Made by a program: the position numbers and the translations under genes. From an uncultured Verrucomicrobiota bacterium (lineage in GTDB: Bacteria; Verrucomicrobiota; Verrucomicrobiia; Opitutales; Seribacteraceae), in NCBI GenBank assembly GCA_902615835.1, contig CACMQL010000016.1:1-39449 (forward strand): 39,449 nt of DNA. The letters are read 5' to 3'. Under the pieces are notes generated by a model that was not told the DNA's origin, searched no databases, and was given only the letters and a program-made list of their open reading frames with translations. Positions 1-39,449 of this stretch are shown piece after piece (position 1 is the first letter of the stretch; every line of letters begins with the position of its first letter).

Positions 1-1
1 C

Positions 2-1882
2 AAGACGATATTCACCCTTGAGATGGGTTCACTTTTAGCGGGTGCCAAGTTCAGGGGCGAATTTGAAGAACGACTGAAGGCAGTTCTAAGTGAGGTCAGC
101 AAGGCGGAGGGTAGGATCGTCCTCTTTATTGATGAAATGCATACAATTGTAGGTGCCGGTAAAGCAGAAGGAGCGATTGATGCCGGCAATATGTTAAAAC
201 CTATGCTCGCAAGAGGAGAACTTCACTGTATTGGTGCAACCACCTTGAATGAGTATCGGCAAAACATTGAAAAAGACGCAGCCTTGGAGAGGCGATTTCA
301 AACCGTACTTGTTGACCAACCGAATGTGGAGGATACGATTTCGATTTTGAGAGGCTTACGTGAACGGTTTGAAATTCATCACGGGGTAAATATTCGCGAT
401 GAGGCGTTGGTTCATGCAGCTTTACTTTCCAACCGTTATATTTCTGATCGTTTTCTTCCAGATAAGGCAATTGATTTGGTTGATGAAGCTTGTGCCATGA
501 TTCGCACTGAACTGGACAGCATGCCATCTGAACTTGATGAAATCAGCAGGCGGGTTCTCCAACTAGAAATTGAGGAAGCTGCACTCAAGCAGGAAAAGGA
601 TAAATCCAGTAAAGACCGTTTGGAGTCTTTGCGAAAAGAACTTGGTAATTGCCGTGACAAGATGGAAACTATTAAACGAAAGTGGGAAAATGAAAGAAAG
701 GAAATTGATAATGTTCGGCTACTCCGTGAGCAAATCGAGTCGACCCGTGCCGAAATGGAACGGGCAGAAAGAGCTTATGATTTGAATTTAGTAGCTGAAC
801 TTAAACACGGGAAACTCCCCGTCTTAGAAGCGGAGCTAGAGGAGTTAGAGAATGCGGATAAAAAGGCGGATTCAATCCTAAAAGAAGAAGTCACAGCAGA
901 AGAAATTGCCGATATTGTCGCTCGTTGGACTGGAGTGCCCGTTACAAAATTAATCGAAGGGGAGAGGGAAAAAATCCTGCGATTACAAAGTATCCTGCAT
1001 CAGCGTGTGATTGGCCAAAACGAAGCGGTTGATGCCGTTGCAGAAGCGATCCTCCGGGCACGGGCGGGAATCAAAGATCCCAACCGTCCAATTGGATCCT
1101 TTTTATTTTTAGGACCGACGGGCGTGGGGAAGACTGAATTGGCTAAGACCTTAGCCGAAAGCCTTTTTGATAGTGAAAACAATGTGGTCCGCATTGATAT
1201 GTCAGAGTACATGGAGAAACACTCGGTGGCCCGTTTGATCGGGGCACCTCCGGGCTATGTTGGGTATGAAGAAGGGGGGCAAATAACTGAAGCGGTGCGA
1301 CGTAAACCTTATTCGGTCATTCTTTTCGACGAGATCGAAAAAGCACATCCGGATGTATTTAATGTTCTTCTTCAATTGATGGATGATGGCCGTTTGACTG
1401 ATTCCCAGGGACGCACAGTGGATTTTAAAAATGTGGTCGTGATCATGACTTCAAATGTTGGCAGCCGTTATTTACAGGATAATTTGATTGACAACGAAAT
1501 TTCAGAATCTGCCCGGGAGTCAGTCATGGCTGATCTGCGTGATCATTTCCGTCCCGAATTTTTGAATCGGATTGATGATACAGTTTTGTTCAAACCTCTT
1601 TCGCTAGAGGAGATAACTGAAATCGTTGATTTGTTGGTTTCGTCTTTGAACAAGAGACTGGAGGATCGGAAAGTTTCAGTAGTGTTTACTCATTCCGCGA
1701 AGAAATGGATAGGTGAAAAAGGGTATGACCCGACCTACGGAGCTCGACCATTGAAGAGGTTTTTGCAGAAGCAAGTTGAGACTCAACTTGCCAGGGCACT
1801 GGTTGCCGGGGATGTGGAGGAGGGAAGCGAAGTCGCTTTTGCCATCAAAGATGACGCGTTGGTCATGAAAGTTCAAAATTGA
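2..1882 (+). CDS. clpB: ATP-dependent disaggregase ClpB, 3' part (5' end outside window)
   Basis: ClpB is a hexameric AAA+ unfoldase that rescues aggregated proteins with DnaK in the cytoplasm. The frame is open from base 2, so the ATG at 23 is internal: the residues before it (KTIFTLE) fit the family. Visible parts are the rest of the first nucleotide-binding domain with Walker B (VLFIDEMH, about 118-141), the long charged middle coiled coil (about 500-900) that separates ClpB from ClpA, the second Walker A (GPTGVGKT, 1112-1135), second Walker B ([12 protein letters not shown]) and the sensor-2 region (YGARPLKR). About 626 residues are present against roughly 860 for the family, so the N-terminal domain and first Walker A lie upstream. 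Convergent with the permease gene 40 bp away; no clear terminator between them. Confidence 0.95.
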
Positions 1883-1922
1883 TTGGGGCGAGCTGTTTAC
1901 TCTGTTTTTACAAGCAAATCCT

Positions 1923-3317
1923 TTACTTTTGGAGATCATGTACGGTTTGATTAATGATCATTTTATTGATCAAGAGGAAAGTCAGGGAGTAGAGCAACGC
2001 ACTGACAAGGGTGATTCCGGAAAGGTTCAAATCCATGTCGATTGCAAACTCATTGGCTTTTTGAGCGATAAAATAGTTGGAAATACAGCACATGATTATC
2101 GAACCGAGCAAAATAATCAGAAAAAGCTTTTGAAATCTTTGATAGAAAACTTGGGCAATTTGACCTGGAAAGAAGCCTAACAAAAGCAGGTTTTTTGTGT
2201 GGCCTGCAGATCGCGATATTATTAACTTAAAACTTGTTGCGAAGGTGGTAATGGAAAGAACGGATAGAAGGAACCCTACTCCAATCATACCGGCGAAAAG
2301 TCCTTGAAGAGCTTTTTTGACAAAGTCCTGATCCGGAAATTCCCGATTAAGCTCATATCCATTTTTATCTATATATGTAAGCAGAGCAGGGGAGGGTGCA
2401 TCCGCAGTTTCCAGAATGACCCGCGAAGGTTGGATCTTTGTATTTTCCTGTTTTAACAAAGATGCCATGGGCGAACGATCGGCAGGGCTTCCCAAGGGTG
2501 AAATTTCCCATGACTGAAATTCGGAATGAGTTTTGAGTTTGGATAAACTAGCCCGTGATTGCGGAGGGCCCTCGATGGTGCCGTTTTTCCATAAAAAAAA
2601 GAAATCCTTACTGTCAGACTGGGTAAATTTTTGATTGGCCCAGTGAAGAAAACTTTCGGGAACCAGAACACTGTTAATCCTTTTACTGAAGGCAACAAAA
2701 CGACCATTCATTGTCCTTTCTTTATTTTTGCCGATAAAGATTTCTATGGGCATTCCCCTCGCTGCATCTGTGGAAAGTGCAGGATATTCGACACGGGAGG
2801 GAGCCAGTCCGAAGTTCCATAAATCAAGATAAAACTTAGGCACCATGATTGGGACCGTGGATGCGTTTTCATCCCATTCCCATCCCTCGGGTATAAAGTC
2901 GAGAAATTCGTCCGGAATCGACTCAAAAAATAAATCCGTTTTGGCGGCGGCACCAAAGCCGGTTTTTCCTGAAGGCCAGATGTGTAAACTAAGTGGAAAT
3001 TTATTTCTGACAAATCCCCCGAGTTTTTGAACCCCTGGCAGTTTTTTGATTGATTCAAGCTCTTGTTGGTCAAATGAATCTTCCTTTTTGGTAAGGTTCA
3101 GCAAAGCCCCTCCCTCGATTTTTTTGTTAATGGTAAAATAATTTTTTGGGGCTTTATTTTGCTTTAAATAGACATTGGCAGCTTGGTAAAGTTGAATACC
3201 AAGGATAAGAAGGCTGGTGCCGATAAAACATCCGAAAGAAGCAAGCAAAAGCTCCCGACGAGGTCCCCTCGAGACGAGGCAAGATCGTAGATTAAAATGC
3301 GTAAGGTTTTCTTTCAC
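1923..3317 (-). CDS. FtsX/MacB-type ABC transporter permease
   Basis: A 464-residue membrane protein with the MacB/FtsX/LolE topology: one N-terminal membrane segment (about residues 22-46), a large extracytoplasmic domain to about residue 335, then three C-terminal segments. Such permeases usually act as mechanotransmission proteins with a LolD-like ATPase, moving lipoproteins or peptides or controlling cell-wall hydrolases. It starts with GTG, and that GTGA overlaps the stop of the upstream ATPase gene, so the two are translationally coupled and very likely form one transporter. The substrate cannot be read from the sequence. Last gene of the minus-strand group that starts at pyrG. Confidence 0.75.
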   Translation of the reverse strand: MKENLTHFNLRSCLVSRGPRRELLLASFGCFIGTSLLILGIQLYQAANVYLKQNKAPKNYFTINKKIEGGALLNLTKKEDSFDQQELESIKKLPGVQKLGGFVRNKFPLSLHIWPSGKTGFGAAAKTDLFFESIPDEFLDFIPEGWEWDENASTVPIMVPKFYLDLWNFGLAPSRVEYPALSTDAARGMPIEIFIGKNKERTMNGRFVAFSKRINSVLVPESFLHWANQKFTQSDSKDFFFLWKNGTIEGPPQSRASLSKLKTHSEFQSWEISPLGSPADRSPMASLLKQENTKIQPSRVILETADAPSPALLTYIDKNGYELNREFPDQDFVKKALQGLFAGMIGVGFLLSVLSITTFATSFKLIISRSAGHTKNLLLLGFFPGQIAQVFYQRFQKLFLIILLGSIIMCCISNYFIAQKANEFAIDMDLNLSGITLVSALLYSLTFLLINKMIINQTVHDLQK

Positions 3318-3949
3318 AAGGAATACTTTTGATCAAAAGGGATTTTAGGCACGGAACCAAGGGTTGATAAAATGATACCTGCTCCGTTTGCCTGCACCAC
3401 CCTATTTATCAAAGAACAGGCTTGGTTTTGGTTAACATCATCTAAATGACTGAACGGCTCATCGAGCAGTAGGAGTTTAAAAGGCTTGAGCAGTGCCCGC
3501 ACCAAAGCAACCCGCTGTCTCTGTCCATGTGAAAGGGTGTGGACGGATTGATCAAGCAAGGATGAGAGACCTAGCATTTCGGTCATCTCCTCAATTTTGG
3601 GAGCATCGCGATTAGTTTGAGGGATAAGACGGATGTTTTCGAGAGCTGTCAGGTGAGGAAACAGGCGCAAATCCTGGAAAAGGAGGGAAATGGATGATTT
3701 GCGAATTTTAATCCATTCATCGTGGGAAAAAGAACCAGAGTCTTTTCCATTAATTGATAGGACTCCCGAGTAATCCCTACGAATTCCGTACAACATATGG
3801 AGCAAGGTAGATTTTCCCATGCCTGAGTGTGCGGAAACTAAAATTGCAGAATTTGCTTCGAAATGAAATTGGGTGTCCCAAATCTCAGAAGATTGAACTA
3901 CGTCCTGCGGCAAAGGATCAGGCACCACATGATTCAATTCGAAGATCAT
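3314..3949 (-). CDS. ABC transporter ATP-binding protein (LolD/MacB-like) without H-loop histidine
   Basis: A short (211-residue) ABC ATPase. Visible motifs are a Walker A (AHSGMGKST, about 40-48, with Ala in place of the first Gly), Q-loop (LLFQD, about 88-92), signature (LSHGQRQR, about 139-146), Walker B (LLLLDEP, about 159-165) and D-loop (SHLDD). The switch-loop position, normally a His after the following beta strand (as in VTH or VSH), reads GIILSTLGS and has no His. The stop overlaps the permease GTG (GTGA) and its own ATG overlaps the stop of the amidohydrolase gene (ATGA). It probably energises the adjacent FtsX-like permease. The missing His suggests slow or altered hydrolysis; that is inference. 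Confidence 0.85.
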   Translation of the reverse strand: MIFELNHVVPDPLPQDVVQSSEIWDTQFHFEANSAILVSAHSGMGKSTLLHMLYGIRRDYSGVLSINGKDSGSFSHDEWIKIRKSSISLLFQDLRLFPHLTALENIRLIPQTNRDAPKIEEMTEMLGLSSLLDQSVHTLSHGQRQRVALVRALLKPFKLLLLDEPFSHLDDVNQNQACSLINRVVQANGAGIILSTLGSVPKIPFDQKYSL

Positions 3950-4824
3950 GGCAGAATAGACAAAATATTACCACCGTAGATCGCATGGGCTTCATTCTTA
4001 GTCAATTGGGCTTCTTGAAAAAGTAAATCTTTGAAGGAGCAGAAATCCGGTCGTTTTTGGGTTCTGGGAAATATCCGAAGAGGATAATCCGTTCCCCAAA
4101 GTATTTTTTTACAGCCAACGACATCAATTAATTTTCGGTATACTTGGGCATCATAAAGCAAGGGACAGGCGGCTAAGTCGTAATATACATTTTGTAAATC
4201 TGAACGGATTTTCGGGTTCAATTCATAAAAGGGGAAAAGACCGCCACCATGAGCTAAGATAATTTTCAGATTTGGAATTTCCCGGGCAAGCCAAAGAAAA
4301 TCTTCAAGCGGGGTGGGCACCCGGCCCGAGTAATCATGTCCGACTGGCTCCGTTACATGAAAAGTAACGGGCCATCCCGCTTGACTCGCAAACTCCATGC
4401 TTTGAATCCAAACTTTTTCTTTGATCGTAGATCCCTGGAGCCAAGGGTGACATTCTCCAATTCCTGCAAAACCCTGATCGTGCCTTTTCTTTAATTCGTC
4501 AAGCGGATCTTTAATCTTCGAATGAATACTCATAAACCCAATAAATTTAAGCGGGTCTTGTTGGATCCATTGTGCATGCCAGTCATTTTGAAGAATGCAG
4601 GTATCAGGATTTTCCCAATACCAGCCCTGAAGGATAACACGGTCTACCCCTTCGGATCTCATTTGAGATAGCATTTCTGTTCGATTTGCCCAACCTTGCA
4701 GGCTTTTTCCTTTGGCTGGTTTAACAAGTTGTAGCCAATGACTTTCCTTTTGTTTGTGGGCAAACTTTACGGGGTTTGCAATTACTTCTTCTGCGTAGCA
4801 GTGCGTATGTGCATCAATGATCAC
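3946..4824 (-). CDS. Metal-dependent amidohydrolase (amidohydrolase_2 family)
   Basis: A 292-residue TIM-barrel hydrolase of the amidohydrolase_2 (PF04909-like) group. It shows the N-terminal HxH metal motif (DAHTH, residues 4-8), a central His (VTFHVTEP), a later His (ILAHGGG) and the C-terminal Asp (LWGTDYPL), the usual one- or two-metal set for this fold. Relatives act on ring carboxylates, lactones or amides; the substrate here is unknown. The chosen start is GTG at 4824, because HxH must lie very near the N terminus. The stop overlaps the ABC ATPase start by ATGA, and pyrG ends 78 bp upstream, so it may be cotranscribed with pyrG. It is not TatD-like, so it is not the missing EboB. Confidence 0.8.
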   Translation of the reverse strand: MIIDAHTHCYAEEVIANPVKFAHKQKESHWLQLVKPAKGKSLQGWANRTEMLSQMRSEGVDRVILQGWYWENPDTCILQNDWHAQWIQQDPLKFIGFMSIHSKIKDPLDELKKRHDQGFAGIGECHPWLQGSTIKEKVWIQSMEFASQAGWPVTFHVTEPVGHDYSGRVPTPLEDFLWLAREIPNLKIILAHGGGLFPFYELNPKIRSDLQNVYYDLAACPLLYDAQVYRKLIDVVGCKKILWGTDYPLRIFPRTQKRPDFCSFKDLLFQEAQLTKNEAHAIYGGNILSILP

Positions 4825-4902
4825 AAGCTAGGACAATGATAAATTTCACCGTTTGGGAAAAATTCAAATTAACTTCTAGAATCTGGAAAAGAAAGGTAAA
4901 AC

Positions 4903-6537
<1,635 letters not shown>

Positions 6538-6548
6538 TTAATTCATCA

Positions 6549-6569
6549 ATGACATGGAAAAGCTGTCAT
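6549..6569. repeat. Short inverted repeat in the pyrG leader
   Basis: ATGACA at 6549-6554 and TGTCAT at 6564-6569 form perfect 6-bp arms around a 9-bp loop, 18 bp upstream of the pyrG start. There is no T-run, so it is not a standard terminator. It could be an operator or a leader hairpin, or chance. Confidence 0.25.
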
Positions 6570-6730
6570 GCAATGTTGTTTTGTTCACAGCAAAAAGTAC
6601 CCTTGAAAATACTTGAACAGAGGATACAACTATTAATTGTACTAATTGCAAAAGCTTATACCACTGAAAAATGATTATTTTAATTCGTCATTTGAATAAA
6701 TAGATTCAATGTCTGATTATCTGTTTTAAA

Positions 6731-7462
6731 ATGTTTGCTAGTTCCATTGGAAAAAAATATCTCATGGCTGTATCCGGGCTTGTCCTTATAGGCTTCGTTT
6801 TTGTGCACATGGCTGGTAACCTGCAAATTCTTATGGGCCAAGAGAAAATCAACGCCTATGCCCATGCCCTACAATCACTCCCTATGCCGATACTCTGGGG
6901 TTCACGCCTATTTCTACTCGCCGCTGTGGTTGTTCATGCAGTCACCGCTTACCAGTTGGTTGTAGAAAACCGCCGGGCCCGACCTCAATCAAATTATATC
7001 GAGACGACTAAGAAAGCAGGTCTGGCTTCTCTCAGAATGGGGCTCACTGGTTCCATTTTACTCGCTTTTATTATTTTTCACTTACTTCATTTTACCATTC
7101 GCTTGATTTATCCAGAGTACGATGAAATGATGACTACAGTTGGTTCACCTGACTCCAACAAGATTCACGATGTATACACGATGGTTATCAAAGGCTTCCA
7201 GCACACTTGGATTTCGATTTTCTATGTGGTGGCCATGTTCTTGCTATGCGGTCACTTAGCCCATGGCGTGAGTAGTACATTCCAGTCTTTGGGGATTCGA
7301 TCAGAAAATTGGCGGGCAAAATTAGAATTAGCTGCCAAAGCGTACGCATGGGTAATTTTCGCGGGATTTTCGATCGTTCCACTACTTGTCTTGGCTCAAA
7401 ATTGGGGTATGATTAACATCTTCAACTTCAGTTCAGGAATGGAACCACTCGCTTTAAATTGA
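6731..7462 (+). CDS. sdhC: Succinate dehydrogenase cytochrome b558 subunit
   Basis: Membrane anchor of respiratory complex II, of the single-polypeptide, five-helix, di-heme b558 type found in Bacillus, Bacteroidetes and Verrucomicrobiota. In 243 residues there are five hydrophobic segments (about 11-30, 54-75, 98-120, 155-178 and 206-228). Candidate heme-ligand histidines are H26 (VFVHMAG), in VVVHAVTAY, in FHLLHF, in FQHTW and in CGHLAHG. The next gene encodes the flavoprotein 22 bp downstream, in the order sdhCAB with no separate SdhD. No Shine-Dalgarno sequence is visible before the ATG. Confidence 0.93.
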
Positions 7463-7484
7463 ACTACCCAAAAAATTCCAAATT

Positions 7485-9401
7485 ATGAACCTCGATTCCA
7501 AAATTCCAGAAGGACCTATAGCAGATAAGTGGGACAACCATCGTTTCTCTTCCAAGTTGGTCAATCCAGCTAACAAGAGGAAATACAAAATCATTGTTGT
7601 GGGTTCCGGGCTTGCTGGAGGCTCGGCCGCTGCGACTCTCGGTGAGTTGGGATACAATGTTGATTGTTTTTGTTATCAGGATTCTCCCAGACGGGCTCAT
7701 TCGATTGCCGCTCAAGGTGGAATTAACGCTGCCAAAAATTACCAAAATGACGGAGACAGCGTTCACCGTCTCTTTTACGACACCGTTAAGGGCGGGGATT
7801 TCCGTTCAAGGGAAGCGAATGTTTATCGGCTGGCTCAAGTTAGCACCAATATAATCGACCAGTGTGTTGCCCAAGGTGTTCCTTTTGCTCGTGAATATGG
7901 AGGTCTGCTTGCCAACCGCTCTTTTGGGGGTGCACAGGTAAGTCGCACTTTTTACGCTCGAGGACAGACGGGCCAACAATTGCTACTTGGTGCTTACAGT
8001 GCCCTCAGTCGACAAATTTCATCCGGGCAGGTTAAGATGCACACCCGGGAAGAGATGTTAGATATTGTCGTTGTAGACGGCCACGCTAAAGGCATCATTT
8101 CTCGTAACTTGACAACGGGGGAGACTAATGCATGGACGGCAGATGCGGTTCTTCTTTGCACTGGTGGTTATGGAAATGTCTACTATTTATCTACCAATGC
8201 GATTGGTTGCAATGTTACAGCAACCTTTCGTGCTTATCGGCGAGGTGCAGGTTTTGCCAATCCTTGTTTCACCCAAATTCATCCAACTTGCATTCCGGTA
8301 GCCGGTGATCATCAATCGAAGTTGACCTTAATGTCTGAATCTTTGAGGAATGATGGTCGGGTTTGGGTGCCCAAAAAAGCGGAGGATGCAAGTAAACATC
8401 CCAATGATATTCCTGAATCTGATCGGGATTATTATCTTGAAAGAAAATATCCGAGTTTTGGAAATCTTGCACCAAGAGACATTTCCAGCCGTTCTGCCAA
8501 GGAAGCATGTGATGAGGGTAGGGGGGTTGGTCCTGGAGGCAGGGGTGTATATCTTGATTTTTCTGATTCCATCACCCGATTAGGCGAAAGTGCCATTCGT
8601 GAAAGGTATGGAAACCTATTCCAAATGTATGAGAGAATTACGGGAGAGAACGCATACCAGCGTCCCATGCGCATTTATCCAGCCATCCATTACACCATGG
8701 GGGGATTATGGGTTGATTACAACCTCATGACAACCATCCCAGGATGCTTTGCTCTGGGGGAGGCAAACTTTTCCGATCATGGCGCAAACCGACTTGGTGC
8801 GAGTGCTTTGATGCAGGGGCTGAGCGATGGTTATTTTGTTATCCCCTACACTATAGGCGATTACCTCGCCAAAGCAGGTGCAGGTGCCATCAGTCCGGAC
8901 TCCGCGGAAGTGAAGGAAGTCATGGAATCCGTTAGGGAACGAGTGGACCAGTTGATTTCTTCGAAAGGAAAGCGTTCGTCGCGTTCTTATCACAAAGAAC
9001 TGGGGCAAATCATGTGGGAATATGCGGGTATGGCCAGAAACGAAAAAGGATTAAACAAAGCAATCGGTCAAATCCAAGATCTTCGAGATGATTTCAACAA
9101 GAACCTTTTGGTACCGGGTTCCGGTGACAATTTGAATGCCGAACTGGAACGCGCAGGGCGCGTGCGTGATTTCTTGGATTTCGGGGAACTGCTCTGCCGT
9201 GATGCACTTGAACGAAACGAGTCCTGCGGTGGACATTTTCGAGAAGAACACCAGACTGAAGATGGTGAGGCCCTTCGCGATGATGAAAATTTTGCACACG
9301 CGGCGGTATGGGAATATGACAGCGATGACAAAATTCCCAGCCGGCATCAGGAAAAGCTAACATATGATAATGTGAAGCTAGCCGTTCGTAGCTACAAATA
9401 A
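7485..9401 (+). CDS. sdhA: Succinate dehydrogenase flavoprotein subunit
   Basis: Catalytic FAD subunit of complex II, oxidising succinate to fumarate on the cytoplasmic face. In 638 residues it has the dinucleotide-binding VVGSGLAGG motif near residue 35, the [12 protein letters not shown] segment whose His normally carries covalent FAD, the substrate-loop HPTC motif (IHPTCIPV) and the capping-domain sequence around [11 protein letters not shown]. The length and sequence match the Bacillus/Bacteroidetes-type SdhA that pairs with a b558 anchor. It lies between sdhC and sdhB, with only 7 bp to sdhB. Confidence 0.97.
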
Positions 9402-9408
9402 TTCTGAT

Positions 9409-10161
9409 ATGAAGTTGTTTCTAAAAGTCTGGAGACAAAGCGATCGAAATGATGAAGGCCGTTTTGAAACCCACACCCTAGATGAAGTTTCAGAGGATTC
9501 GTCTTTTTTGGAAATGATGGATCAACTGAATGAACAACTTCTTGAAGAAGGTACGGAACCAGTCGTTTTCGATCATGATTGCCGGGAAGGCATATGTGGA
9601 ATGTGTTCATTGACCATAAACGGTCATCCACACGGCACCGAAAACTCCACCACTACTTGCCAACTTCACATGCGCAAGTTTGAAGACGGTGACACGATTA
9701 CCATTGAACCTTTCCGGGCAAGGGCATTTCCTGTGGTCAAGGATCTTGTGGTGGACCGTTCCGCTTTTGACAGCATCACTCAGGCAGGAGGCTTCATCAC
9801 GGTTCGTACGGGGAGTGCTCCCGATGGTAACGCCCTACCCGTACCCAAGAATGATTCTGACAGAGCCATGGATGCAGCCGCATGCATCGGTTGTGGTGCC
9901 TGCGTGGCATCTTGTAAGAATGCATCCGCCATGCTCTTTACCTCCGCCAAGGCAGGACATCTCAACATGTTACCCCAGGGTCAGGCTGAAAAAGACAAAC
10001 GGGTGCTTGCGATGGTTTCGGCGATGGACGAGGCAGGATTTGGTAATTGTAGAAATTTCGGAGAATGCTCGGCCGCATGCCCCAAGGATATTTCGCTCGA
10101 CTACATTGCTAAACTGAACCGGGATCACATAAAAGCCAAGATTAAGTCCGTTTTTGCTTAA
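9409..10161 (+). CDS. sdhB: Succinate dehydrogenase iron-sulfur subunit
   Basis: Electron-transfer subunit of complex II, passing electrons from FAD to the quinone site in SdhC. In 250 residues all three cluster motifs are present: the [2Fe-2S] set CREGICGMC with a distal Cys in TTCQLH, the [4Fe-4S] set [11 protein letters not shown], and the [3Fe-4S] set [12 protein letters not shown]. The C-terminal cluster domain is of the alpha-helical ferredoxin type. It is the last gene of sdhCAB; argH begins 67 bp downstream in the same direction, with no clear terminator between. Confidence 0.97.
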
Positions 10162-10228
10162 TCGCCTAATTGGTCTTTCAGTTCAAATTTGATTGCGGCT
10201 ACGCCGAACCTTTGGATGATGAGTAATC

Positions 10229-11635
10229 ATGCCCAACGACGCAAAGCATGTTTCCTGGGGAGGAAGATTTTCAGCCCAACCTGATGCCTTGATGCAAGTG
10301 TTTGGGGAATCTGTCTCCTTTGATAAAAGACTGGCCTCATATGATTTAAAGGGAAGTCTTGCACATGCTGCCATGCTTGCCCATGTGGGTCTACTTTCTA
10401 CGGAAGAGTTGCAAGATATCGAAAAAGGAATTCTGGAATTACAGGAGGAGATTTACGAGGACGATTTTCCATGGAAGCTTGAGTTGGAAGATGTTCATAT
10501 GAACCTGGAACAAGCGTTGCGTGAAAAAACCAAAGCAGCGGACAAACTGCACACCGGAAGGAGTCGAAATGATCAAGTGGCCACTGATATGCGTCTCTTT
10601 TTTAAGGATGCCTGTTCAAATTTACAGCTAAGCCTCGAAGGAGCCATGCAAGCACTCCTCTCCATTGCGGAGAAGTACGCGACTCTTCCGATACCGGGTT
10701 ACACCCATTTGCAGAGGGCACAACCGGTCACGGTAGGCCATCATATGCTCGCCCACATTGAATCATTGGGTCGGGATCATGAAAGGTTTTCAGTCGTTGC
10801 CAGGCATGCTAACGCCTGCCCCCTTGGTTCAGGTGCAATTGCTGGGTCCACTTTACCCTTGGACAGAGAATACGCCGCGAAAGTTCTCGGTTTTGCCGAC
10901 GACAAGGGTAATGCGTGTTTGACTGCGAATGGAATGGATGCAGTTGCAGACCGTGATTTGTTTCTGGAATTCGCAAGTGCCTGTTCCATAACTGCAATTC
11001 ATTTGTCAAGATTATCAGAGGATTTGATTATTTGGAACTCCTCAGAATTTGATTTTGTTTCTTTGCCTGATTCCTTCACCACCGGGTCTTCACTTATGCC
11101 TCAAAAGAAAAATCCTGATTCCTATGAACTGGTCCGTGGAAAAACCGGTCGAATTGTTGGGAATCTGACCAATTTGTTGGTTGCAGTCAAAGGGCTACCC
11201 TTGACTTACAACCGCGACTTGCAGGAAGACAAGCCACCTGTCTTTGATTGCTATGATCAGTTATCTTTGTGCCTGTCAGTGGTTAAAGGATGCATGGAAG
11301 AAACAGTTTTCAATGAAGAAAAATGCGAGTTGGCTGCATCCGACCCTTTACTGCTTGCCACGGATCTTGCTGATTTCCTCGTTGGCAAGGGTCTGCCTTT
11401 TAGGCGGGCTCACCATGTCGTCGGAGAATTGGTCGGGCTAGCAGAGTCCAAGGGAATAAGTCTGACCGAAATCAGTAATGAGGAAGCTTCAGGCATTTCT
11501 GAATTTCTTACTGGTGAATGGAGGGAGGTTTTTGATCTCAAGCGGGCATTTTCCAAGCGCGAGAAACCCGGGATGCCGGGTCCCCGCCAAATCTCCACAA
11601 GAATTGATCATTGGAAGTCCGTATTGTCCGACTGA
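10229..11635 (+). CDS. argH: Argininosuccinate lyase
   Basis: Last enzyme of arginine synthesis, splitting argininosuccinate into arginine and fumarate. The 468 residues are full length for the family. The fumarase/aspartase-superfamily signature GSSLMPQKKNPD holds the catalytic flexible loop; TGRSRNDQVATD binds substrate near the N terminus, and GYTHLQRAQPVT carries the conserved catalytic His-containing segment. The downstream LIM/DA1-like gene starts only 6-15 bp after the stop, so the two are probably cotranscribed. Confidence 0.97.
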   Translation: MPNDAKHVSWGGRFSAQPDALMQVFGESVSFDKRLASYDLKGSLAHAAMLAHVGLLSTEELQDIEKGILELQEEIYEDDFPWKLELEDVHMNLEQALREKTKAADKLHTGRSRNDQVATDMRLFFKDACSNLQLSLEGAMQALLSIAEKYATLPIPGYTHLQRAQPVTVGHHMLAHIESLGRDHERFSVVARHANACPLGSGAIAGSTLPLDREYAAKVLGFADDKGNACLTANGMDAVADRDLFLEFASACSITAIHLSRLSEDLIIWNSSEFDFVSLPDSFTTGSSLMPQKKNPDSYELVRGKTGRIVGNLTNLLVAVKGLPLTYNRDLQEDKPPVFDCYDQLSLCLSVVKGCMEETVFNEEKCELAASDPLLLATDLADFLVGKGLPFRRAHHVVGELVGLAESKGISLTEISNEEASGISEFLTGEWREVFDLKRAFSKREKPGMPGPRQISTRIDHWKSVLSD

Positions 11636-11641
11636 CAAGCA

Positions 11642-12703
11642 TTGGAAATTGTGGGTCGACTGCCATATTTCTTTTGTTTGTTACTGACCATGATTGGTTT
11701 TCCTAGTTATGGAAGGGTTTGGACCACCGTGGAAGGCCGCACGCAAAATGGTGAACTTTTTGAAGTTGCAGGAGAGGAAGTTGGAATAAGAATAAAGGGA
11801 CGGGAGTACCGCTTTCTTATCAGCCGCTTTATCCCTTCAGATCGCAGGTATATTCAAGAATGGTCAAAAGTGGATAGATGTCATCGGTGTTCTAAAAAAC
11901 TTGGCAATGCTCCCTACAAGGAAGCTGGCTCTTATAAATTTCATGAAACTTGTTTTAGATGCTTAGTTTGTAACAATGAATTCAAAGGTGGTGAAAAATT
12001 AAAGAGAGATGAGTGGGGCGGAATGGTTCATGTGGATCATTTTGACAAGGCGAAAATGTGTGATTCTTGTTCCAGAATCATTTCTGTGGACAGCCTGACT
12101 TCTCAGCAGATTTTAAAAGACGGGCGCATGAATTGCCTCTCATGTACCTCGGATGGCGTATACGAAGTTAAGCGGATGGAGGAGGTTCGAAAGAGGGTTT
12201 GGCCTACCTTGGCAAGTTTAGGAATGACAGTACCAGTCGGGGATGTGATCATTCGGGTTGTGGGAAAGGATGTGATTGAAAAGCAGGCAAAAAAAATAAA
12301 AGCACGGGGCAACCTGCGTGGGCTAACCCTGACGACTTACAAAATTCGCAGTGATGGAAGATCCATTCGAACCACATTTGATCACGAGATTTTTATTCTC
12401 TATGGTATGCCCCACATTGAGTGTGCGTCCGTGTTGGCTCATGAATATGCTCACATCTGGCTAAACGAAAGGTTTATTGATGATTTTCCACCGGTCGTGG
12501 AGGGTTTTTGTAACTTAGTTTCGGAAGCAACCTTGGTTAAGGAAAAAGGAAAACTTGCTTCCATAATTCGTGAAAACATGCAGCAAAGTGACAACCCGGT
12601 CTATGGGGCCGGGTATCGTCGGATGAAGCAACGGCTTACAGTTCTGGGCTGGCCGGCCCTGCTTGCTGAAATGAAAAGAAAATCGCAACCACCAACCCCG
12701 TGA
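11642..12703 (+). CDS. Exported SHD1-LIM-DA1-like zinc metallopeptidase
   Basis: A 353-residue multidomain protein. Numbering is from the TTG at 11642; GTG at 11651 gives a neater signal peptide and may be the true start. Order: signal peptide (about 1-24); an SHD1-like domain (about 25-75, RVWTTVEGRTQNGE onward), common in Planctomycetota and Verrucomicrobiota; a LIM-type zinc finger (C80, C83, H101, C104, C107, C110, then H130 and H133); a second Cys pair set (C140, C143, C165, C168); and a DA1-like peptidase domain with HEYAH at 267-271 and a likely third ligand E287 in VVEGFC. This LIM plus HExxH plus EG(F/I)C layout matches plant DA1 peptidases, which cut regulators of organ growth. Export, unlike the cytosolic plant enzyme, is inferred from the N terminus. 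The stop overlaps the next gene (GTGA). Confidence 0.8.
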   Translation: MEIVGRLPYFFCLLLTMIGFPSYGRVWTTVEGRTQNGELFEVAGEEVGIRIKGREYRFLISRFIPSDRRYIQEWSKVDRCHRCSKKLGNAPYKEAGSYKFHETCFRCLVCNNEFKGGEKLKRDEWGGMVHVDHFDKAKMCDSCSRIISVDSLTSQQILKDGRMNCLSCTSDGVYEVKRMEEVRKRVWPTLASLGMTVPVGDVIIRVVGKDVIEKQAKKIKARGNLRGLTLTTYKIRSDGRSIRTTFDHEIFILYGMPHIECASVLAHEYAHIWLNERFIDDFPPVVEGFCNLVSEATLVKEKGKLASIIRENMQQSDNPVYGAGYRRMKQRLTVLGWPALLAEMKRKSQPPTP

Positions 12704-13542
12704 TAATAATGAAAATCGATTCTCATCATCACTTTTGGAAATATGACCCTCAGACTTATTCATGGATGAATCAACAAATGGACATCCTGAAAGTCGATTA
12801 CCAACCTTTGGATTTAGAAAGAGAAATTTCTGCTGCGGAAATAGACGGAGTGGTTTCGGTGCAGGCAGATCAATCACTTAGGGAAACAGACGACCTGCTC
12901 AATCATGCCAGAGTGAATGATTTTATTTTGGGGGTGGTGGGTTGGTTGCCTTTGGCAGATGCAAATGTCAGGGACTTGATGGATAAATATTCTGACTGTT
13001 CTCTTCTCAAGGGGATTCGTCATGTCGTGCAGGATGAACCCGATGATAATTTTATTTTGGGAGAAGAATTCAACCGGGGTGTCAGCTTACTCAAGGAGTA
13101 TAATTGGGCATATGACATTCTTATCTACGAAAGACAACTTAGCCCATCCATCCAGTTTGTTGATCGTCATCCCGATCAGGTCTTCGTTTTGGATCACATT
13201 GCCAAACCTAGAATCAGAGATTCAGTGATCGAGCCCTGGAAAACGCAAATGTATGAAATCGCCAAGCGGGAAAATGTTACCTGCAAACTTTCCGGCATTG
13301 CCACTGAAGCAAACTGGAACGAATGGAAAAAAGAGGACTTGATCCCCTTTATGGATATTGCACTGGATGCATTCGGGCCCGATCGTATTATGTTTGGTTC
13401 TGACTGGCCCGTTGCTAGGTTGGCCATTGAATACGGTTCTTGGGTTGAAATATGCCGCGAATTTATTTCTAAGCTCACTTATAACGAACGAAATCTTATT
13501 GAAGGAGAGGTCGCAACCCAGGTTTACGGGTTGAGGCAGTAA
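12700..13542 (+). CDS. Amidohydrolase, L-fuconolactonase / COG3618-like
   Basis: A 280-residue TIM-barrel hydrolase with the N-terminal DSHHHFW motif (HxH metal site), a central catalytic region VLDHIAKP, and the C-terminal MFGSDWPV Asp motif. These are typical of the L-fuconolactonase and 2-pyrone-4,6-dicarboxylate lactonase branch of the amidohydrolase superfamily, which opens sugar or aromatic lactones. The GTG at 12700 overlaps the stop of the metallopeptidase gene. ATG at 12709 (MKIDSHHHF) is an equally good start and closer to family lengths. No sugar-catabolism genes lie beside it, so the actual lactone cannot be named. It converges on the next gene with only 19 bp between. Confidence 0.82.
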   Translation: MIIMKIDSHHHFWKYDPQTYSWMNQQMDILKVDYQPLDLEREISAAEIDGVVSVQADQSLRETDDLLNHARVNDFILGVVGWLPLADANVRDLMDKYSDCSLLKGIRHVVQDEPDDNFILGEEFNRGVSLLKEYNWAYDILIYERQLSPSIQFVDRHPDQVFVLDHIAKPRIRDSVIEPWKTQMYEIAKRENVTCKLSGIATEANWNEWKKEDLIPFMDIALDAFGPDRIMFGSDWPVARLAIEYGSWVEICREFISKLTYNERNLIEGEVATQVYGLRQ

Positions 13543-33682: not shown

Positions 33683-33870
33683 AAGAAAGTTGATCCATAG
33701 AAAGGACGTGGAGGCAAGACAAGGTAATCTGTTTTATAATACGGCTTTCTTTTTAATGGGAAGGCTATAAAACAAAAATGCGTGACCCAGCCCAGGTCAC
33801 GCATATTATGCAACTCAATTAAGAGTCTGTTTTGCCCTTTGTGATACAAGTTTTGCATGTTGGATGCCAA
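33679..33870 (-). other. Possible leader ORF upstream of eboE (63 codons, weak)
   Basis: An open frame of 63 codons that spans the leader hairpin and ends in an ATGA overlap with the eboE start. The overlap would suit a coupled leader peptide. The composition (many aromatic residues, no recognisable motif) and the absence of a ribosome site argue that it may be chance. Confidence 0.15.
33767..33804 (-). terminator. Rho-independent terminator-like hairpin in the ebo leader
   Basis: On the minus strand a perfect 10-bp stem (ATGCGTGACC, 33804-33795, and GGTCACGCAT, 33787-33778) closes a 7-nt loop and is followed by TTTTTGTTTT. This is a textbook intrinsic terminator, yet it points toward eboE, 84 bp before its start codon, with no minus-strand gene upstream for it to end. 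It would act as an attenuator of the ebo operon or end a short RNA. On the plus strand the stem has no following T-run. Confidence 0.7.
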
Positions 33871-33921
33871 TTTTCAAAAACCCCATAAAAAGGCAGAAAA
33901 AACTTTTTTTAATCAGTCTTC

Positions 33922-33949
33922 TTGTCACGCTGGTAAAAATTTTTACACT
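33922..33949 (+). promoter_or_regulatory. Candidate promoter of the ECF sigma gene
   Basis: TTGTCA (33922-33927) and TACACT (33944-33949) are separated by 16 bp and lie 43 bp before the preferred ATG at 33993. This is a housekeeping-type match of moderate quality. It also argues against translation starting at 33864, upstream of these boxes. Confidence 0.35.
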
Positions 33950-33992
33950 TAAAACAAATGATCTTAGTATTAACGCCTTCTTCTATACACTT

Positions 33993-34517
33993 ATGATCAC
34001 TGAACCTATCTGGAAGTCCTGGTTTGCCCGGCATGGGAATAAACTCCTTCTTTTCGCCAGGCAACAAGCCCGAAACCCTCATGATGCGGAGGATTTGGTA
34101 CAGGAAGCATTTGTGCGAATCTGGAGACTTTACGGTCATACCGGAGAAGTTGCACCTGGGCTGGTGTATCGGGCCATTCGTAGATTGGCAATTGACTGGG
34201 CACGGAGTATTGACCGCCGGGTAATTCGTGAACAGAAAACCTATGATTTGTCTCCGTTATCATCCGCCTTTGAGGATTCTCTTGAAAAAGATGAGCGCCA
34301 ACAGGCACTCCTCCGGGCAGTCGATCGTCTTCCGGAAGAACAGAAAGAAGTCCTCACCCTTAAAATTTGGGGGGAACTTACCTTTGATGAAATTGCCCGT
34401 ACTCTGGATATGTCCCTAAACACGGTTGCTTCACGATACCGCTACGCCCTACAAAAACTCAAGGACTGGGTACCGGAAGAACTTGAAAGTCCTAATCCGA
34501 ACCTCTCCCCATCATGA
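33993..34517 (+). CDS. ECF-type RNA polymerase sigma factor
   Basis: A 174-residue sigma-70 family factor of the extracytoplasmic-function type, directing RNA polymerase to stress or envelope promoters. Region 2 (NPHDAEDLVQEAFVRIWR) and region 4 (LPEEQKEVLTLKIWGELTFDEIARTLDMS, shown here only to locate it by its first 10 residues LPEEQKEVLT) are both clear; regions 1 and 3 are absent, as expected. The open frame reaches back to 33864, but the added residues are unlike any sigma N terminus, so ATG 33993 is preferred. The stop overlaps the next ATG (ATGA), the usual link between an ECF factor and its anti-sigma factor. Confidence 0.9.
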   Translation: MITEPIWKSWFARHGNKLLLFARQQARNPHDAEDLVQEAFVRIWRLYGHTGEVAPGLVYRAIRRLAIDWARSIDRRVIREQKTYDLSPLSSAFEDSLEKDERQQALLRAVDRLPEEQKEVLTLKIWGELTFDEIARTLDMSLNTVASRYRYALQKLKDWVPEELESPNPNLSPS

Positions 34518-35098
34518 ATGATTTTGAATCCCTTGAAAAGGAACTCAGGTCCCTGACTCCCAAAAAACCTTCACTTCGACTTTCCGATCGTATTGAGCAA
34601 GGCTTGGGGGATGCCGGTAATTTAGCGATGCGTAGACTCCCGGAGGAAGTAAAATCTTCCCCCGCTGCCAAGAAATCGAACATTTTATTTTTTCCATGGT
34701 TAGGCATAGGTATTGCCGCTTCTCTGATCTTAACTTTTCTAAGTGTTTACTTCTTGAAATTGGGGGAAAATGAGAATCTTTCCCCGCCTTCTGCAGAGAT
34801 TCCTGTTTTCGATGCTGTTCCTGGTGAAGATCCGGAAAGTCCTATTCACGGTGTTTCTGTCGCTGAACTGGAAGCGCGATCAGGCATGCCCGTTGGGGGA
34901 TGGATGCCCACTTTTCAGGAAAGGCTGCTTGACCGGGTTGATGAGGGAGTGATCGCCCGTCCCGGAGGATTGCCCGCCCGTCAGGTCCGAATGCATTATC
35001 TTGATGAAATTCTTTGGCAACACCCCGCTATTGATCAACGCATTCTTTCCAGCCAACCCCGCCAGGAGATTATTCTAATCGACCTCGATCTCTATTAA
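34514..35098 (+). CDS. Putative membrane anti-sigma factor
   Basis: A 194-residue protein with one membrane helix (about 57-82), a charged cytoplasmic N-terminal part of about 55 residues and a C-terminal part outside the membrane. No HxxxCxxC zinc anti-sigma motif and no clear family match are visible. The function is inferred from topology and from the 4-bp overlap with the ECF sigma gene. The outer part includes a Met/Pro-rich segment (SGMPVGGWMPTFQE) and ends with LIDLDLY. It could release the sigma factor on envelope stress. If it is not an anti-sigma factor, it is an unassigned single-pass protein. Confidence 0.6.
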   Translation: MNDFESLEKELRSLTPKKPSLRLSDRIEQGLGDAGNLAMRRLPEEVKSSPAAKKSNILFFPWLGIGIAASLILTFLSVYFLKLGENENLSPPSAEIPVFDAVPGEDPESPIHGVSVAELEARSGMPVGGWMPTFQERLLDRVDEGVIARPGGLPARQVRMHYLDEILWQHPAIDQRILSSQPRQEIILIDLDLY

Positions 35099-35103
35099 AT
35101 GGT

Positions 35104-35150
35104 TTTATGCCCATTTGTTATTTATTTTGAAATAATCAAGGTGGCATAAA
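35104..35150. repeat. Intergenic inverted repeat before the PDZ gene
   Basis: TTTATGCC (35104-35111) and GGCATAAA (35143-35150) are perfect 8-bp arms 31 bp apart, with a smaller A/T-rich repeat inside (TTATTT and AAATAA). They lie between the putative anti-sigma gene and the PDZ gene. Possible operator or leader structure; it has no T-run. Confidence 0.25.
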
Positions 35151-35168
35151 CATACGAGAGATCTGCAA

Positions 35169-36008
35169 ATGAAAATAGCTCATATAAGTTTGTCACTTTC
35201 ATACACTCTTTTATTTTTTTCTTCGGTTTGTCTGGCCGCTCAAACACATTTGGATGTTGAAAAAGTAACCTTCCTCGGAGTCAGTACTTCCACCTTGACC
35301 GTGGGAATGAGTGAACAGTTAAACCTACCTAGAGGGGTTCACTTAAGTATTGATCAAGTATCTCCTCAAAGTCCGGCCGAGCAAGCCGGGCTCAAACTTT
35401 ACGATGTTCTTTTAAGAATGGAAGACCAAATTTTGGTCAATTCTGCTCAACTCAAAGCTTTAATCCGAATGAAAAACCCTGGAGATCTTGTTCAATTGAA
35501 AATACTTCGAAAGGGCAAGCCCATGACCCTCGAGGTTAAACTTACCGAGTCGGAGGTAGCATTGATCGAAACAATGGGACGCCCCCAGCGATTTGACTCG
35601 AGGCCTTTGTTCCCAACAGATCTCTTCTCGCAGGATCCTTTTTTCCGGAATAATAATTCATCCATCATGGAACTGCTTAAGAAACATGGTTTTAATTCCA
35701 TGCCGGGTATTACTCAAAACAGTCGCATGAATCAAGACCCCTTCGACATCGACAGTCCTTTGCATGGTCCGAGTTCCAGTCCGGGTAATGTACAATCTTT
35801 CAACTATTCCTCCGAACAAAAGCAAATCATCACAACGGATGAGCTGGGCACATTGGAGTATTCCGTGAAGGACCAGAACAAACACCTGCGGGCAACATCC
35901 CCGGATGGGGAAGTGCTCTTTGATGGACCTGTCAATACCGATGAAGACCGTAAGAATCTACCCAAGGATCTTCACCAACGCCTCGAAAAGCTCGAATGCA
36001 GACTCTAA
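35169..36008 (+). CDS. Exported PDZ-domain protein
   Basis: A 279-residue protein with a signal peptide (cleavage about residue 24, CLAA|QT) and one PDZ domain (about 33-125; FLGVSTSTLTVG, SPQSPAEQAGLKLYDVLLRM, VQLKILRKGKP). The C-terminal half is polar and low in structure (many Ser, Asn, Gln), ending in a charged segment with similarity to nothing I recognise. There is no trypsin-like or other protease domain, so it is not DegS or HtrA. It lies 70 bp after the putative anti-sigma gene, so it may belong to the same envelope-stress group: a PDZ that senses protein C termini in the periplasm would suit, but this is inference. Confidence 0.75.
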   Translation: MKIAHISLSLSYTLLFFSSVCLAAQTHLDVEKVTFLGVSTSTLTVGMSEQLNLPRGVHLSIDQVSPQSPAEQAGLKLYDVLLRMEDQILVNSAQLKALIRMKNPGDLVQLKILRKGKPMTLEVKLTESEVALIETMGRPQRFDSRPLFPTDLFSQDPFFRNNNSSIMELLKKHGFNSMPGITQNSRMNQDPFDIDSPLHGPSSSPGNVQSFNYSSEQKQIITTDELGTLEYSVKDQNKHLRATSPDGEVLFDGPVNTDEDRKNLPKDLHQRLEKLECRL

Positions 36009-36012
36009 TAGC

Positions 36013-36055
36013 CTAAATTTAGAGCATTTATTTCTACTCTTTTAAATAAATTTAG
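36013..36055. repeat. Inverted repeat upstream of the barrel gene
   Basis: CTAAATTTA (36013-36021) and TAAATTTAG (36047-36055) are perfect 9-bp arms 25 bp apart, starting 5 bp after the PDZ stop and ending 61 bp before the porin-like ATG. AGAG/CTCT inside could extend the pairing with a bulge. No T-run follows. It may be an operator or an mRNA hairpin. Confidence 0.35.
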
Positions 36056-36116
36056 GAGTGAAATTTCTGCTTGACCCCGAAAAATGAGTACTAGATTATG
36101 GAAGGTCTGATACATC

Positions 36117-37514
36117 ATGAAATTATTTAATACCCTCACCGCCTGCTTTGCAGCTATTTCCGCTACTGCTTCTGCCCAAACTTCACGCATGATGATGCCT
36201 GCGGTGTCATCTCCCTCAGTTGCTGATGGAGGAACAGAATTGGGTGCAAACAGCACCCTTACTGCAAGCGGCATTGCCCTCGACAATCGCGTGAAAATGC
36301 GTGGATTTATTGATTTTCGTTACGATTACACAAACATTGATGAATTAGTTGCCGATGATGATGCCCGATTTCGCTCTGCGGCTGACATCGACTTCCTTTT
36401 TGACTTTTCCCCTGTTACTGGAGAAATTCACTTCGCTGCTTCACCAGACAGCGTTGGCCTTGAGCAAGCGTTCTTACGATACAATTTTAACCAAGATTTT
36501 AGTTTAACCGCTGGTAGACAGCTGACCGTACTTGGTTTCGAAAAAGACGAATCTCCTAATATGTATCAAACATCCTATGCTTATTTGACTGATGTAAGTG
36601 CAGATGTTCAAGGTGGAGGTGCCGCCTTGGAAAGTTTTATAGGTTTGTCTTCATTACGAACGGTTGGTCAAACAACCTTCAAAAATTTCACCCCTCTCGT
36701 AAATCTTGATACAACTTCAGGCACTCCAGCTGCACTTGCAAATATTTCATTCATTGCTGCCAATTATGCTACGACTCATCCTTATTTATTAGCAAATCCA
36801 ATGAAAGAATTTGGAGATGGTAATGCCGACCCTTTTCAAATTCCTTCTTTTCGTAGAAATTATGTTGATGGTTTACGTTTAAATTTTAATAACGGACAAT
36901 TTGGTTTTGTTGCTGGTCTTCACAATGGTTATTTTACAAGCAGCGATAATCTCAACGATGGAAATATCGGATTAGATATTGCTGCTTCTGTTATGATTAT
37001 TCCTGGCTTGGAATTTCGTATTGGTTTTGGTTATGAAAACAACGATGCTTACAATGATTCTATTGAACATTACAACACATGGGCTTCAGGCTTAAAATCA
37101 GCTTTAATTGCTGATTCCAGACCTGAGGCTAACAGCATACGAATATTCCCAGAGTCTGACGACATCAGTCAGTTCAACTTCTTGCTATCCTATCAAACAG
37201 GTGGTTTGACCCTCGCATTTGAGTGGGACCTTTGGAATGTGTATGTCATCGACATGTGGAACTTGATGTTCTTGGCCAACTATCAGTTCAACGATGTTTT
37301 CGGTCTTACCTTCCGTTATTCCCACGAAGACTTCGAAGCGGGTGTTCCTGGAGGTGGAGAGGGAAGCAGTAACCGTTTCACGATCGGACCTATATTCTCT
37401 GTTACTGATAACCTCACGGTCGGCATCGAGTACTCTCACGCTGAACTTGATTCCGACAATACTGGTGATACCAGCGTGGATGAACTATACGCTGAAACCA
37501 TCTTTTCTTTCTAA
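36117..37514 (+). CDS. Outer-membrane beta-barrel (porin-like) protein, copy 1
   Basis: A 465-residue exported protein. The signal peptide (MKLFNTLTACFAAISATASA|QTS) is clear. The mature part is rich in alternating strands with aromatic girdles (for example RMRGF-like turns, FNFLLSYQTGGLTLAFEWDL, FGLTFRYSHEDFE) and ends in the C-terminal Phe (ETIFSF) that typifies BAM substrates. It is presumably an outer-membrane channel; the solute is unknown. A GGAAGG ribosome site lies 11 bp before the ATG. A terminator follows at 37541. Copy 2 (37662-39065) is a tandem paralogue with the same order of motifs. A+T content is visibly higher than in the genes to the left. Confidence 0.82.
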   Translation: MKLFNTLTACFAAISATASAQTSRMMMPAVSSPSVADGGTELGANSTLTASGIALDNRVKMRGFIDFRYDYTNIDELVADDDARFRSAADIDFLFDFSPVTGEIHFAASPDSVGLEQAFLRYNFNQDFSLTAGRQLTVLGFEKDESPNMYQTSYAYLTDVSADVQGGGAALESFIGLSSLRTVGQTTFKNFTPLVNLDTTSGTPAALANISFIAANYATTHPYLLANPMKEFGDGNADPFQIPSFRRNYVDGLRLNFNNGQFGFVAGLHNGYFTSSDNLNDGNIGLDIAASVMIIPGLEFRIGFGYENNDAYNDSIEHYNTWASGLKSALIADSRPEANSIRIFPESDDISQFNFLLSYQTGGLTLAFEWDLWNVYVIDMWNLMFLANYQFNDVFGLTFRYSHEDFEAGVPGGGEGSSNRFTIGPIFSVTDNLTVGIEYSHAELDSDNTGDTSVDELYAETIFSF

Positions 37515-37540
37515 GAGTTAGAATATTCATGATTTTAAGA

Positions 37541-37567
37541 AAGCCCGCCACTCGGCGGGCTTTTTTG
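37541..37567 (+). terminator. Rho-independent terminator after barrel copy 1
   Basis: A GC-rich 7-bp stem (GCCCGCC, 37543-37549; GGCGGGC, 37554-37560) with a 4-nt loop, preceded by AA and followed by TTTTTT, sits 26 bp after the stop of copy 1. Confidence 0.9.
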
Positions 37568-37590: not shown

Positions 37591-37661
37591 CGATTGACCA
37601 AAACGACCTTTATCTATTTCATAACACTTTTCCCTACTACCTCAGACAGATAAAGTTATCC

Positions 37662-39065
37662 ATAAAACTATTTTATTCATTCATTGTTTCTTTTGCATCT
37701 ATTTCGCCCATTATTTACGCAGAAGAAGCAGATAATGCATCTATGCTTGCTTCAGAATCATTGGGGCGAACAATGCTTGGAGTGAATGAAACGCTTGCTT
37801 ACAAAGGCATTTCTATCGACAACCGTCTAAAAATGCGAGGATTCATTGATTTTCGTTTAGACTATACCAATTTTGATAGTCTAATCTCAGAAGATGACAC
37901 TCGCTTTAGAACATTTGCTGATATTGATTTTCTCATAGATTTCTCTCCCGTTTCGGGTGAAATTCATTTTGGATTCAGCAACGAGGGTATCGATCTTGAG
38001 TAGGCTTTTTTACGCTGTAGTTTTAACAAAAATTTTAATTTGACTGCTGGTCGTCAGTTGACTGCTCTGAGTTATGAGAAAGACGAATCCCCCAGTATGT
38101 ACCAAACATCCTACGCCTACATAACGGATGTGATGGCAGATGTGAGAGAGGGAGGTAAGGCGTTGGAGGATTTTGTAGGTATAACCACAATCAAAAATAC
38201 GGGTAGTCAAGTGTCCAAAGATTTAGTTGCGGAACGTAAGAAAATTACAGATATGGCATCAACCCTCTTTGACGAAAAATTTGAAATTACATCCGACTAT
38301 CTCGACAATTATCCCTTAGTTGGAATTGATGAAGAGAGAGAGTTCGAACTGCCTGGATTTCGTAGAAACTATGTGGACGGCGTCCGGTTTAACTACAACA
38401 ACGGAAGAATCGGCTATGTTGCCGGACTTCACAATGGATACTTTACCGACAGCAATCACCAGAATAATGGGAATATTGGTTTGGATCTCGCTGCTTCCTT
38501 TATGCTCATTCCTGGACTTGAGTTGCGTCTTGGTTATGGATATGAGAAAAATGATGCATACAACCAGTCAATCTCGGGATACAATAGTTGGGCTTCTAAT
38601 TTTACATCTGCGGTCAACGCCGACCGTGCCAAAAGACCTTCCTTAACCGGACATGATTTCTATGCTAAGTTTGCTAAGGGAGTATTTTTGTTTCCTGAAT
38701 CTGATGATATTAGCCAGCTCAATCTACAGGTTTCTTACCAAACAGGTGGGTTGACCCTCGCGTTTGAGTGGGACATGTGGGATGTTTATGTGATTGAAAT
38801 GTGGAATATCATGATGCTTGCGAACTATCAGTTTAATGATTTGTTCGGACTTACTTTCCGTTATTCGCACGAAAATTTCGAAATGGAGGACGATATTCCA
38901 GTAAAAGGAGAGGGAAGCAGCAATCGTTTCACCTTTGGACCGATGTTTAGCGTTACTGATAACTTGACCGTTGGCATCGAGTATAGTCATGCCGAACTTG
39001 ATTCGACAAATACGGGTGATACCAGCGTGGATGAACTATATGCTGAAACCATCTTTTCTTTCTAA
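37662..39065 (+). pseudogene. Outer-membrane beta-barrel protein, copy 2, with lost start codon and amber stop
   Basis: This is a full-length paralogue of copy 1 (468 codons). Codons from 37662 read I-K-L-F-Y-S and align with M-K-L-F-N-T of copy 1; the signal peptide continues to IIYA|EEADNA, so ATA stands where copy 1 has ATG. No ATG, GTG or TTG lies in this frame from 37623 to 37742. At 38001 a TAG replaces the Gln codon (CAA, 36465) of copy 1, and the same frame then runs unbroken for 353 codons to ETIFSF. Two point lesions and no frameshift point to a recent or still selected loss, a silent cassette, or sequence errors. The last about 20 residues differ from copy 1 at one position. Confidence 0.8.
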
Positions 39066-39090
39066 GAGTTAGAATATTTATGATTTAGAA

Positions 39091-39118
39091 AATCCCGCCA
39101 CTTGGCGGGCTTTTTTTG
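39091..39118 (+). terminator. Rho-independent terminator after barrel copy 2
   Basis: A 6-bp stem (CCCGCC, 39094-39099; GGCGGG, 39104-39109), 4-nt loop and a run of seven Ts follow copy 2. It is nearly identical to the terminator of copy 1 and at the same distance from the stop codon, so the duplication covered the 3' flank. Confidence 0.88.
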
Positions 39119-39133
39119 TATGAGCCAATAAAG

Positions 39134-39212: not shown

Positions 39213-39449
39213 ATGAAATATCATTTAATTCCTCTTATTATTTCAACACTTCTTTTTCACGGCTGTGGAAGTGACTCAAGCCAAGGAAGCACCGCAACTA
39301 CAAGTGGTGCATCCACACCTGCCAGTTTACCGGCTGGACTGTCGATTGCAGTAAACCCTACTATTACTTTTACTTCTAGTCTTTTCAATGGTGCCACGGT
39401 TTCTGTCACATATGACAACCCTACCGCATTTTCGACTTATCCTGTATAC
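39213..39449 (+). CDS. Putative lipoprotein, 5' part (cut by window end)
   Basis: The first 79 codons of a gene that runs off the window. The N terminus (MKYHLIPLIISTLLFHGC) is a short lipoprotein signal with the likely lipidated Cys at residue 18, followed by GSDSSQGS and a Ser/Thr/Ala/Pro-rich linker, then what looks like a beta-strand repeat (LSIAVNPTITFTSS). No family can be named from this part. No Shine-Dalgarno sequence is seen before the ATG; a consensus -35 box lies upstream. Terminator 39091-39118 separates it from the barrel genes. Confidence 0.65.
   Translation, partial: MKYHLIPLIISTLLFHGCGSDSSQGSTATTSGASTPASLPAGLSIAVNPTITFTSSLFNGATVSVTYDNPTAFSTYPVY

Follow-up and report, generated by a model that had tools for sequence, protein, structure and literature searches.

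Related porin arrays

Porin genes that stand in succession and of which one is decaying, porin alleles that recombine between species, and neighboring porin genes of which one is silent have all been described in other bacteria. In the available excerpts of the respective reports, (i) the third porin gene of the Dickeya ompF/ompF2/ompF3 array is missing or a pseudogene in some strains (PMC10581057); (ii) ompF alleles of Yersinia recombine across species (PMC3105102); and (iii) Brucella omp2a and omp2b are a genuine pair of porin genes in which a silent copy serves as the source of conversion (PMC7050475). Known donor systems, according to an excerpt of a further report, recombine via shared stretches (PMC4534519).

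The locus analyzed here, on which literature searches found no paper, recalls these systems and also differs from them. The Dickeya array is enterobacterial and, as the excerpt describes it, its pattern of loss is known over many strains (PMC10581057), whereas the apparently decayed gene described here, copy 2, comes from one assembly only. The recombination described in the Yersinia excerpt lies within one gene (PMC3105102), while here a whole tandem copy has apparently moved, as judged from one pair of bins. In the Brucella excerpt, the two omp2 copies face in opposite directions, are 82–100% identical and carry many conversion tracts (PMC7050475); the copies at our locus, in contrast, are arranged in tandem, share 66% identity and show at most one short tract.

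A tandem porin pair at a contig end

The window, i.e., the whole stretch of 39,449 nucleotides that was analyzed, is a single contig (C16); the draft genome to which it belongs comprises 1,815,189 bases in 91 contigs, with completeness estimated at 60.81% and bin contamination at 0.11%. Two porin genes lie near its right end, and the second of these ends 384 bp before the contig does. The features of this region are as follows.

36117–37514, + strand: copy 1, intact porin gene of 465 aa with a signal peptide (by eye) and 16 predicted strands (ORF, fold model, Foldseek)
37543–37566, + strand: terminator-like hairpin and T-run after copy 1, read from the sequence and aligned with matching elements that follow four related genes; absent from the consensus scan
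37662–39065, + strand: copy 2, porin pseudogene with one frame and two lesions (translation, homology)
37662–37664, + strand: ATA at the start-codon position (sequence, alignment to copy 1)
37856–39119, + strand: stretch 94.2% identical to contig G025:C18 (L034), ending with the terminator and with no clear similarity beyond it (DNA alignment)
38001–38003, + strand: internal TAG at an invariant Gln (translation, alignment of relatives, copy 1 model)
39015–39078, + strand: 64-bp stretch, 63/64 identical to copy 1 (37464–37527), the only candidate conversion tract (alignment of the copies)
39094–39116, + strand: terminator-like hairpin and T-run after copy 2 (sequence and consensus scan)
39213–39449, + strand: start of a lipoprotein-like ORF (by eye), cut by the contig end, with weak matches in 2 of 26 other genomes of the genus and no Pfam family

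Within the genus, the right flank of copy 2 has weak relatives only. Promoter-like matches in this region did not exceed chance (11, against 9.1 expected), and copy 2 is without a conventional start. Directly upstream of the porins, within 33864–37514, stand genes for a sigma factor of the ECF type (with Pfam sigma-70 r2 and r4), a 194-aa ORF for which no Pfam family was found, and a PDZ-domain protein; the same order is also present in G007:C3 and in G025:C80, G025 being the TMED56 bin.

Copy 2, which stands beside an intact paralogue, is a gene for a 16-stranded porin that is probably BBP2-like. Of 56 other genomes drawn from the genus, family and order, 34 contain matches to copy 1 (E ≤ 1e-5), and 8 of the 23 aligned relatives match Pfam BBP2 (PF07642) at E ≤ 0.01. 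Folding of copy 1 predicts 16 strands (of five models, the best reached a mean pLDDT of 75.6 and a pTM of 0.72, and the other four a pLDDT of 58–62), and the matches that Foldseek listed for it were nearly all outer-membrane porins, those of the OmpF/OmpT/OprP/OmpM1 type among them, with loose superpositions (rmsd mostly >9 Å). While strand number, Foldseek matches and the BBP2 matches of relatives liken copy 1 to general 16-stranded porins and to BBP2, these superpositions set it apart, as do the long variable inserts that the model of copy 1 shows at the predicted loops between strands 5–6 and 9–10 and the results of the family searches: copy 1 had no Pfam family at 0.01 (Porin_O_P appeared at an E-value of 0.058 only). 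NCBIfam returned nothing for copy 1 or for the orthologue of copy 2 described below, and a PDB sequence search returned nothing useful. A viral origin of copy 2 was considered and dropped, as one scan of viral_contigs found no relative of it.

One open frame with two lesions

Translation of 37662–39068 on the forward strand gives a single open frame of 467 residues that runs to the TAA at 39063–39065; its sole internal stop is the TAG at 38001–38003, and its first codon, at 37662, is ATA. The latter aligns with the ATG of copy 1 (IKLF.. against MKLF..). An alternative upstream start was ruled out, there being no in-frame ATG, GTG or TTG back to the stop at 37536. An earlier note on this DNA had read an ATA at the start, a TAG in place of Gln at 38001 and no frameshift over 468 codons, all of which the translation and alignment bear out. 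With 63% protein identity between copies 1 and 2, and 66% DNA identity over 1353 aligned coding bases, the open frame of copy 2 reflects homology rather than chance. Copy 2 thus combines homology to an intact gene with inactivating lesions, the two properties by which a pseudogene is recognized.

The amber codon occupies the position of a Gln that is kept in all 22 of the other aligned relatives. It corresponds to residue 117 of copy 1, which the fold model of copy 1 places in predicted strand 4; a protein that stopped at this point would therefore have fewer than four of the 16 strands. At 38016, copy 2 has a Cys where its orthologue and the five outgroup porins used have a Tyr.

The same note had held that TAG is a normal stop in this organism and that recoding is unlikely, and our results agree. 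A match to prfA (RF1) above the cut-off is present on contig C6, and TAG ends 3 of the 26 ORFs in the window. Among the 23 tRNAs typed by ARAGORN (of 24 matches), none has the CUA anticodon of an amber suppressor, which is weak evidence in a genome that is 60.8% complete. Recoding of TAG was rejected on the basis of prfA, the three window genes that end in TAG and the typed tRNAs.

A near-identical orthologue in the TMED56 bin

Copy 2 matches a contig of the TMED56 bin (G025:C18; locus L034) at 94.2% DNA identity over 1264 bp without gaps. At the protein level, the orthologous reading frame (L034 2–1207) shares 94.8% identity with copy 2 over 402 aa; 69 of 1206 coding positions differ between them. 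The orthologue contains no stop and is open at the amber site; it starts at the contig edge, where its start codon is cut off. We found an orthologue of copy 2 only once, in 1 of the 26 other genomes of the genus, and the same one was recovered among 41 other genomes of the family and 371 other genomes of the order. The presence of a 94% identical orthologue in another bin indicates that copy 2 is a separate, old porin type rather than a recent duplicate of copy 1.

In two relatives (L032:3467–6150 and L034:1315–4036), the next genes are an additional, smaller porin and PPK2, neither of which was found after copy 2. PPK2 and the genes after it on the orthologous contig were also not found in the genome of the window, a result of little weight at 60.8% completeness.

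Timing of the inactivation

The amber codon arose after copy 2 had split from its orthologue. Random substitutions would create nonsense codons in about 2.8% of cases. A single nonsense change in approximately 35 (half of the 69, assuming an even split) therefore matches the expectation for neutral drift along the whole branch or a part of it. The pairwise omega between copy 2 and its orthologue is 0.13, and compared with a single shared omega, a model with both copies neutral loses 13.35 lnL; the pair has therefore been mostly under purifying selection.

The earlier note had also proposed dN/dS as a check on copy 2, and the answer is divided. Counts of individual sites lean toward relaxation: copy 2 has 15 nonsynonymous to 10 synonymous changes (amber included), compared with 7 to 25 in the orthologue (Fisher p 0.006), and in the body alone the counts are 10:8 and 5:14 (p 0.10). 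The changes were polarized by the outgroup majority, which left 12 of the 69 sites unpolarized, and third positions of the outgroups are near saturation. The likelihood tests, on the other hand, do not tell the two branches apart. With copy 2 as the foreground, 2dlnL was 10.7, and with the orthologue as the foreground, as a control, it was 10.0; allowing the two separate omegas gained only 0.17 lnL. An apparent neutral evolution of copy 2 (likelihood p 0.001) was consequently dropped, as the control branch behaved the same and no difference emerged under the joint model.

Probable exchange between species

Elsewhere in the TMED56 bin, the DNA compared is much less similar to the genome of the window than copy 2 is to its orthologue. 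Identity to G025:C80 is 67.4–71.9% in the ebo/sigma region and 68.3–70.4% in copy 1, positions 1–13500 of the window are 66–76% identical to G025, and the remainder of contig C18 is 80–83% identical to the genome of the window at the two places where they meet. The dS between copy 2 and its orthologue is 0.20 overall (0.08–0.20 in five of six segments and 0.72 in the last 201 bp), while four ORF matches on the same contig have dS values of 0.45, 0.87, 0.97 and 1.00. The last segment is a mosaic: at 39009–39062, copy 2 shares 96% identity with copy 1 and 89% with the orthologue. With the other DNA compared only 66–83% alike, against 94.2% for copy 2, transfer of the gene body between the lineages after their split is the simplest explanation. 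Judging from these comparisons, the copy 2 gene was probably exchanged between species before it died.

Bin G025, however, has an estimated contamination of about 6%, and its contigs C18 and C80 may come from different organisms; part of the exchange signal could stem from a mixed bin or from chimerism at a contig end. As a separate observation, positions 11917–13499 of the window match both G025:C46 and G025:C106, which fits either a mixed bin or a duplicated gene there.

We consider it likely that copy 2 is a real, recently inactivated tandem porin pseudogene, probably exchanged between species, and that copy 1 has been left as the working porin. Of the three readings that the earlier note had put forward (silent donor cassette, recent decay and assembly error), recent decay has the best support, from the two lesions in the assembled sequence, from homology, from the use of TAG as a stop and from a near-identical orthologue that is open where copy 2 has the amber. 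Copy 2 would represent a porin type distinct from copy 1, which a related marine Opitutia bin carries almost unchanged, and this type was probably exchanged between species by recombination. Copy 2 would have been functional through most of its history; its inactivation would be a recent event of this lineage, in which the start codon was lost and the amber codon gained, with copy 1 presumably remaining as the working porin at the locus and covering the function.

Taken alone, copy 2 is an ordinary broken paralogue. It modestly suggests that, in uncultured marine Verrucomicrobiota, surface porins pass from one species to another and decay afterward; if such exchange held true in populations, it might bear on nutrient uptake and on the turnover of phage receptors. 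One could go further and propose that marine Opitutia share a reservoir of porin genes, which travel from species to species as cassettes delimited by the common 3' end and terminator, and that switched-off copies stay in the array as exchange material through that end, but we regard this as very unlikely.

Alternative explanations

The main rival to a pseudogene is an artefact of assembly or consensus, in which the last 1.8 kb would be chimeric with another population, or strain variants would have been merged, so that the living cell has either an intact copy 2 or none at this place. The draft state of the genome (91 contigs, 60.81% complete), the position of copy 2 only 384 bp from the contig end and its being far closer to the other bin than the rest of the contig is would fit such an artefact, and the porin 3' ends and terminators, which are alike across paralogues, could mislead an assembler. 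We nevertheless think an artefact unlikely. The two lesions fall within the 1.4 kb of copy 2, compared with no internal stop in any of 25 other contig ORFs examined; collinearity with G007 continues beyond the terminator of copy 1 to 37619, which confines a false join to approximately 37620–37856; and the bin contamination is estimated at 0.11%. Moreover, with 69 differences from its nearest relative in 1206 coding positions, copy 2 is not simply the sequence of the TMED56 bin.

A silent donor cassette, as the earlier note had suggested, would feed gene conversion from copy 2 into copy 1 and thereby vary a surface barrel. The tandem arrangement, the kept frame and the missing conventional start would suit such a role, for which the Brucella pair offers a real precedent (PMC7050475, in excerpt), and over a 64-bp stretch at the 3' end the two copies are identical at 63 of 64 bases, with an unusual density of identical codons (15/17, reached in 5 of 20000 shuffles). 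This 3' end is, however, conserved among all copies (copy 1 and the orthologue of copy 2 share 13 of 17 codons there), and the match falls short of the loops expected to vary. Outside the 3' end, the longest run of identical codons is 4, so that no block of the copy 2 type is visible in copy 1, and exact runs of more than 14 bp are confined to that end (26 and 37 bp), leaving the remainder of the genes without the pairing stretches expected of a donor. The coding identity of 66% also lies below the 82–100% of Brucella omp2 given in the excerpt, and the assembly holds only one candidate donor. The 64-bp stretch suggests a single short conversion or a shared constraint, and no variation system. 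We therefore regard a donor cassette, which the absence of exact runs >14 bp outside the 3' end and the single candidate donor leave weakly supported at best, as highly improbable, and retain the recently inactivated pseudogene as our reading.

That copy 2 is still a functional gene, with AUA initiation and amber readthrough yielding a full-length porin, would accord with a frame kept over 468 codons and a pairwise omega of 0.13 but is barely conceivable in view of prfA, the three TAG-ended genes of the window and the lack of a CUA anticodon among the 23 tRNAs typed in this incomplete genome, and two weak steps in series would presumably yield little protein.

Damage to porin genes of this family was seen in one further place, the metagenome-assembled genome AC_MB256, where matches to a porin of the same family (L042:5998–7088) are spread over three frames; the gene is thus frameshifted there, through either decay or indel errors of the assembly.
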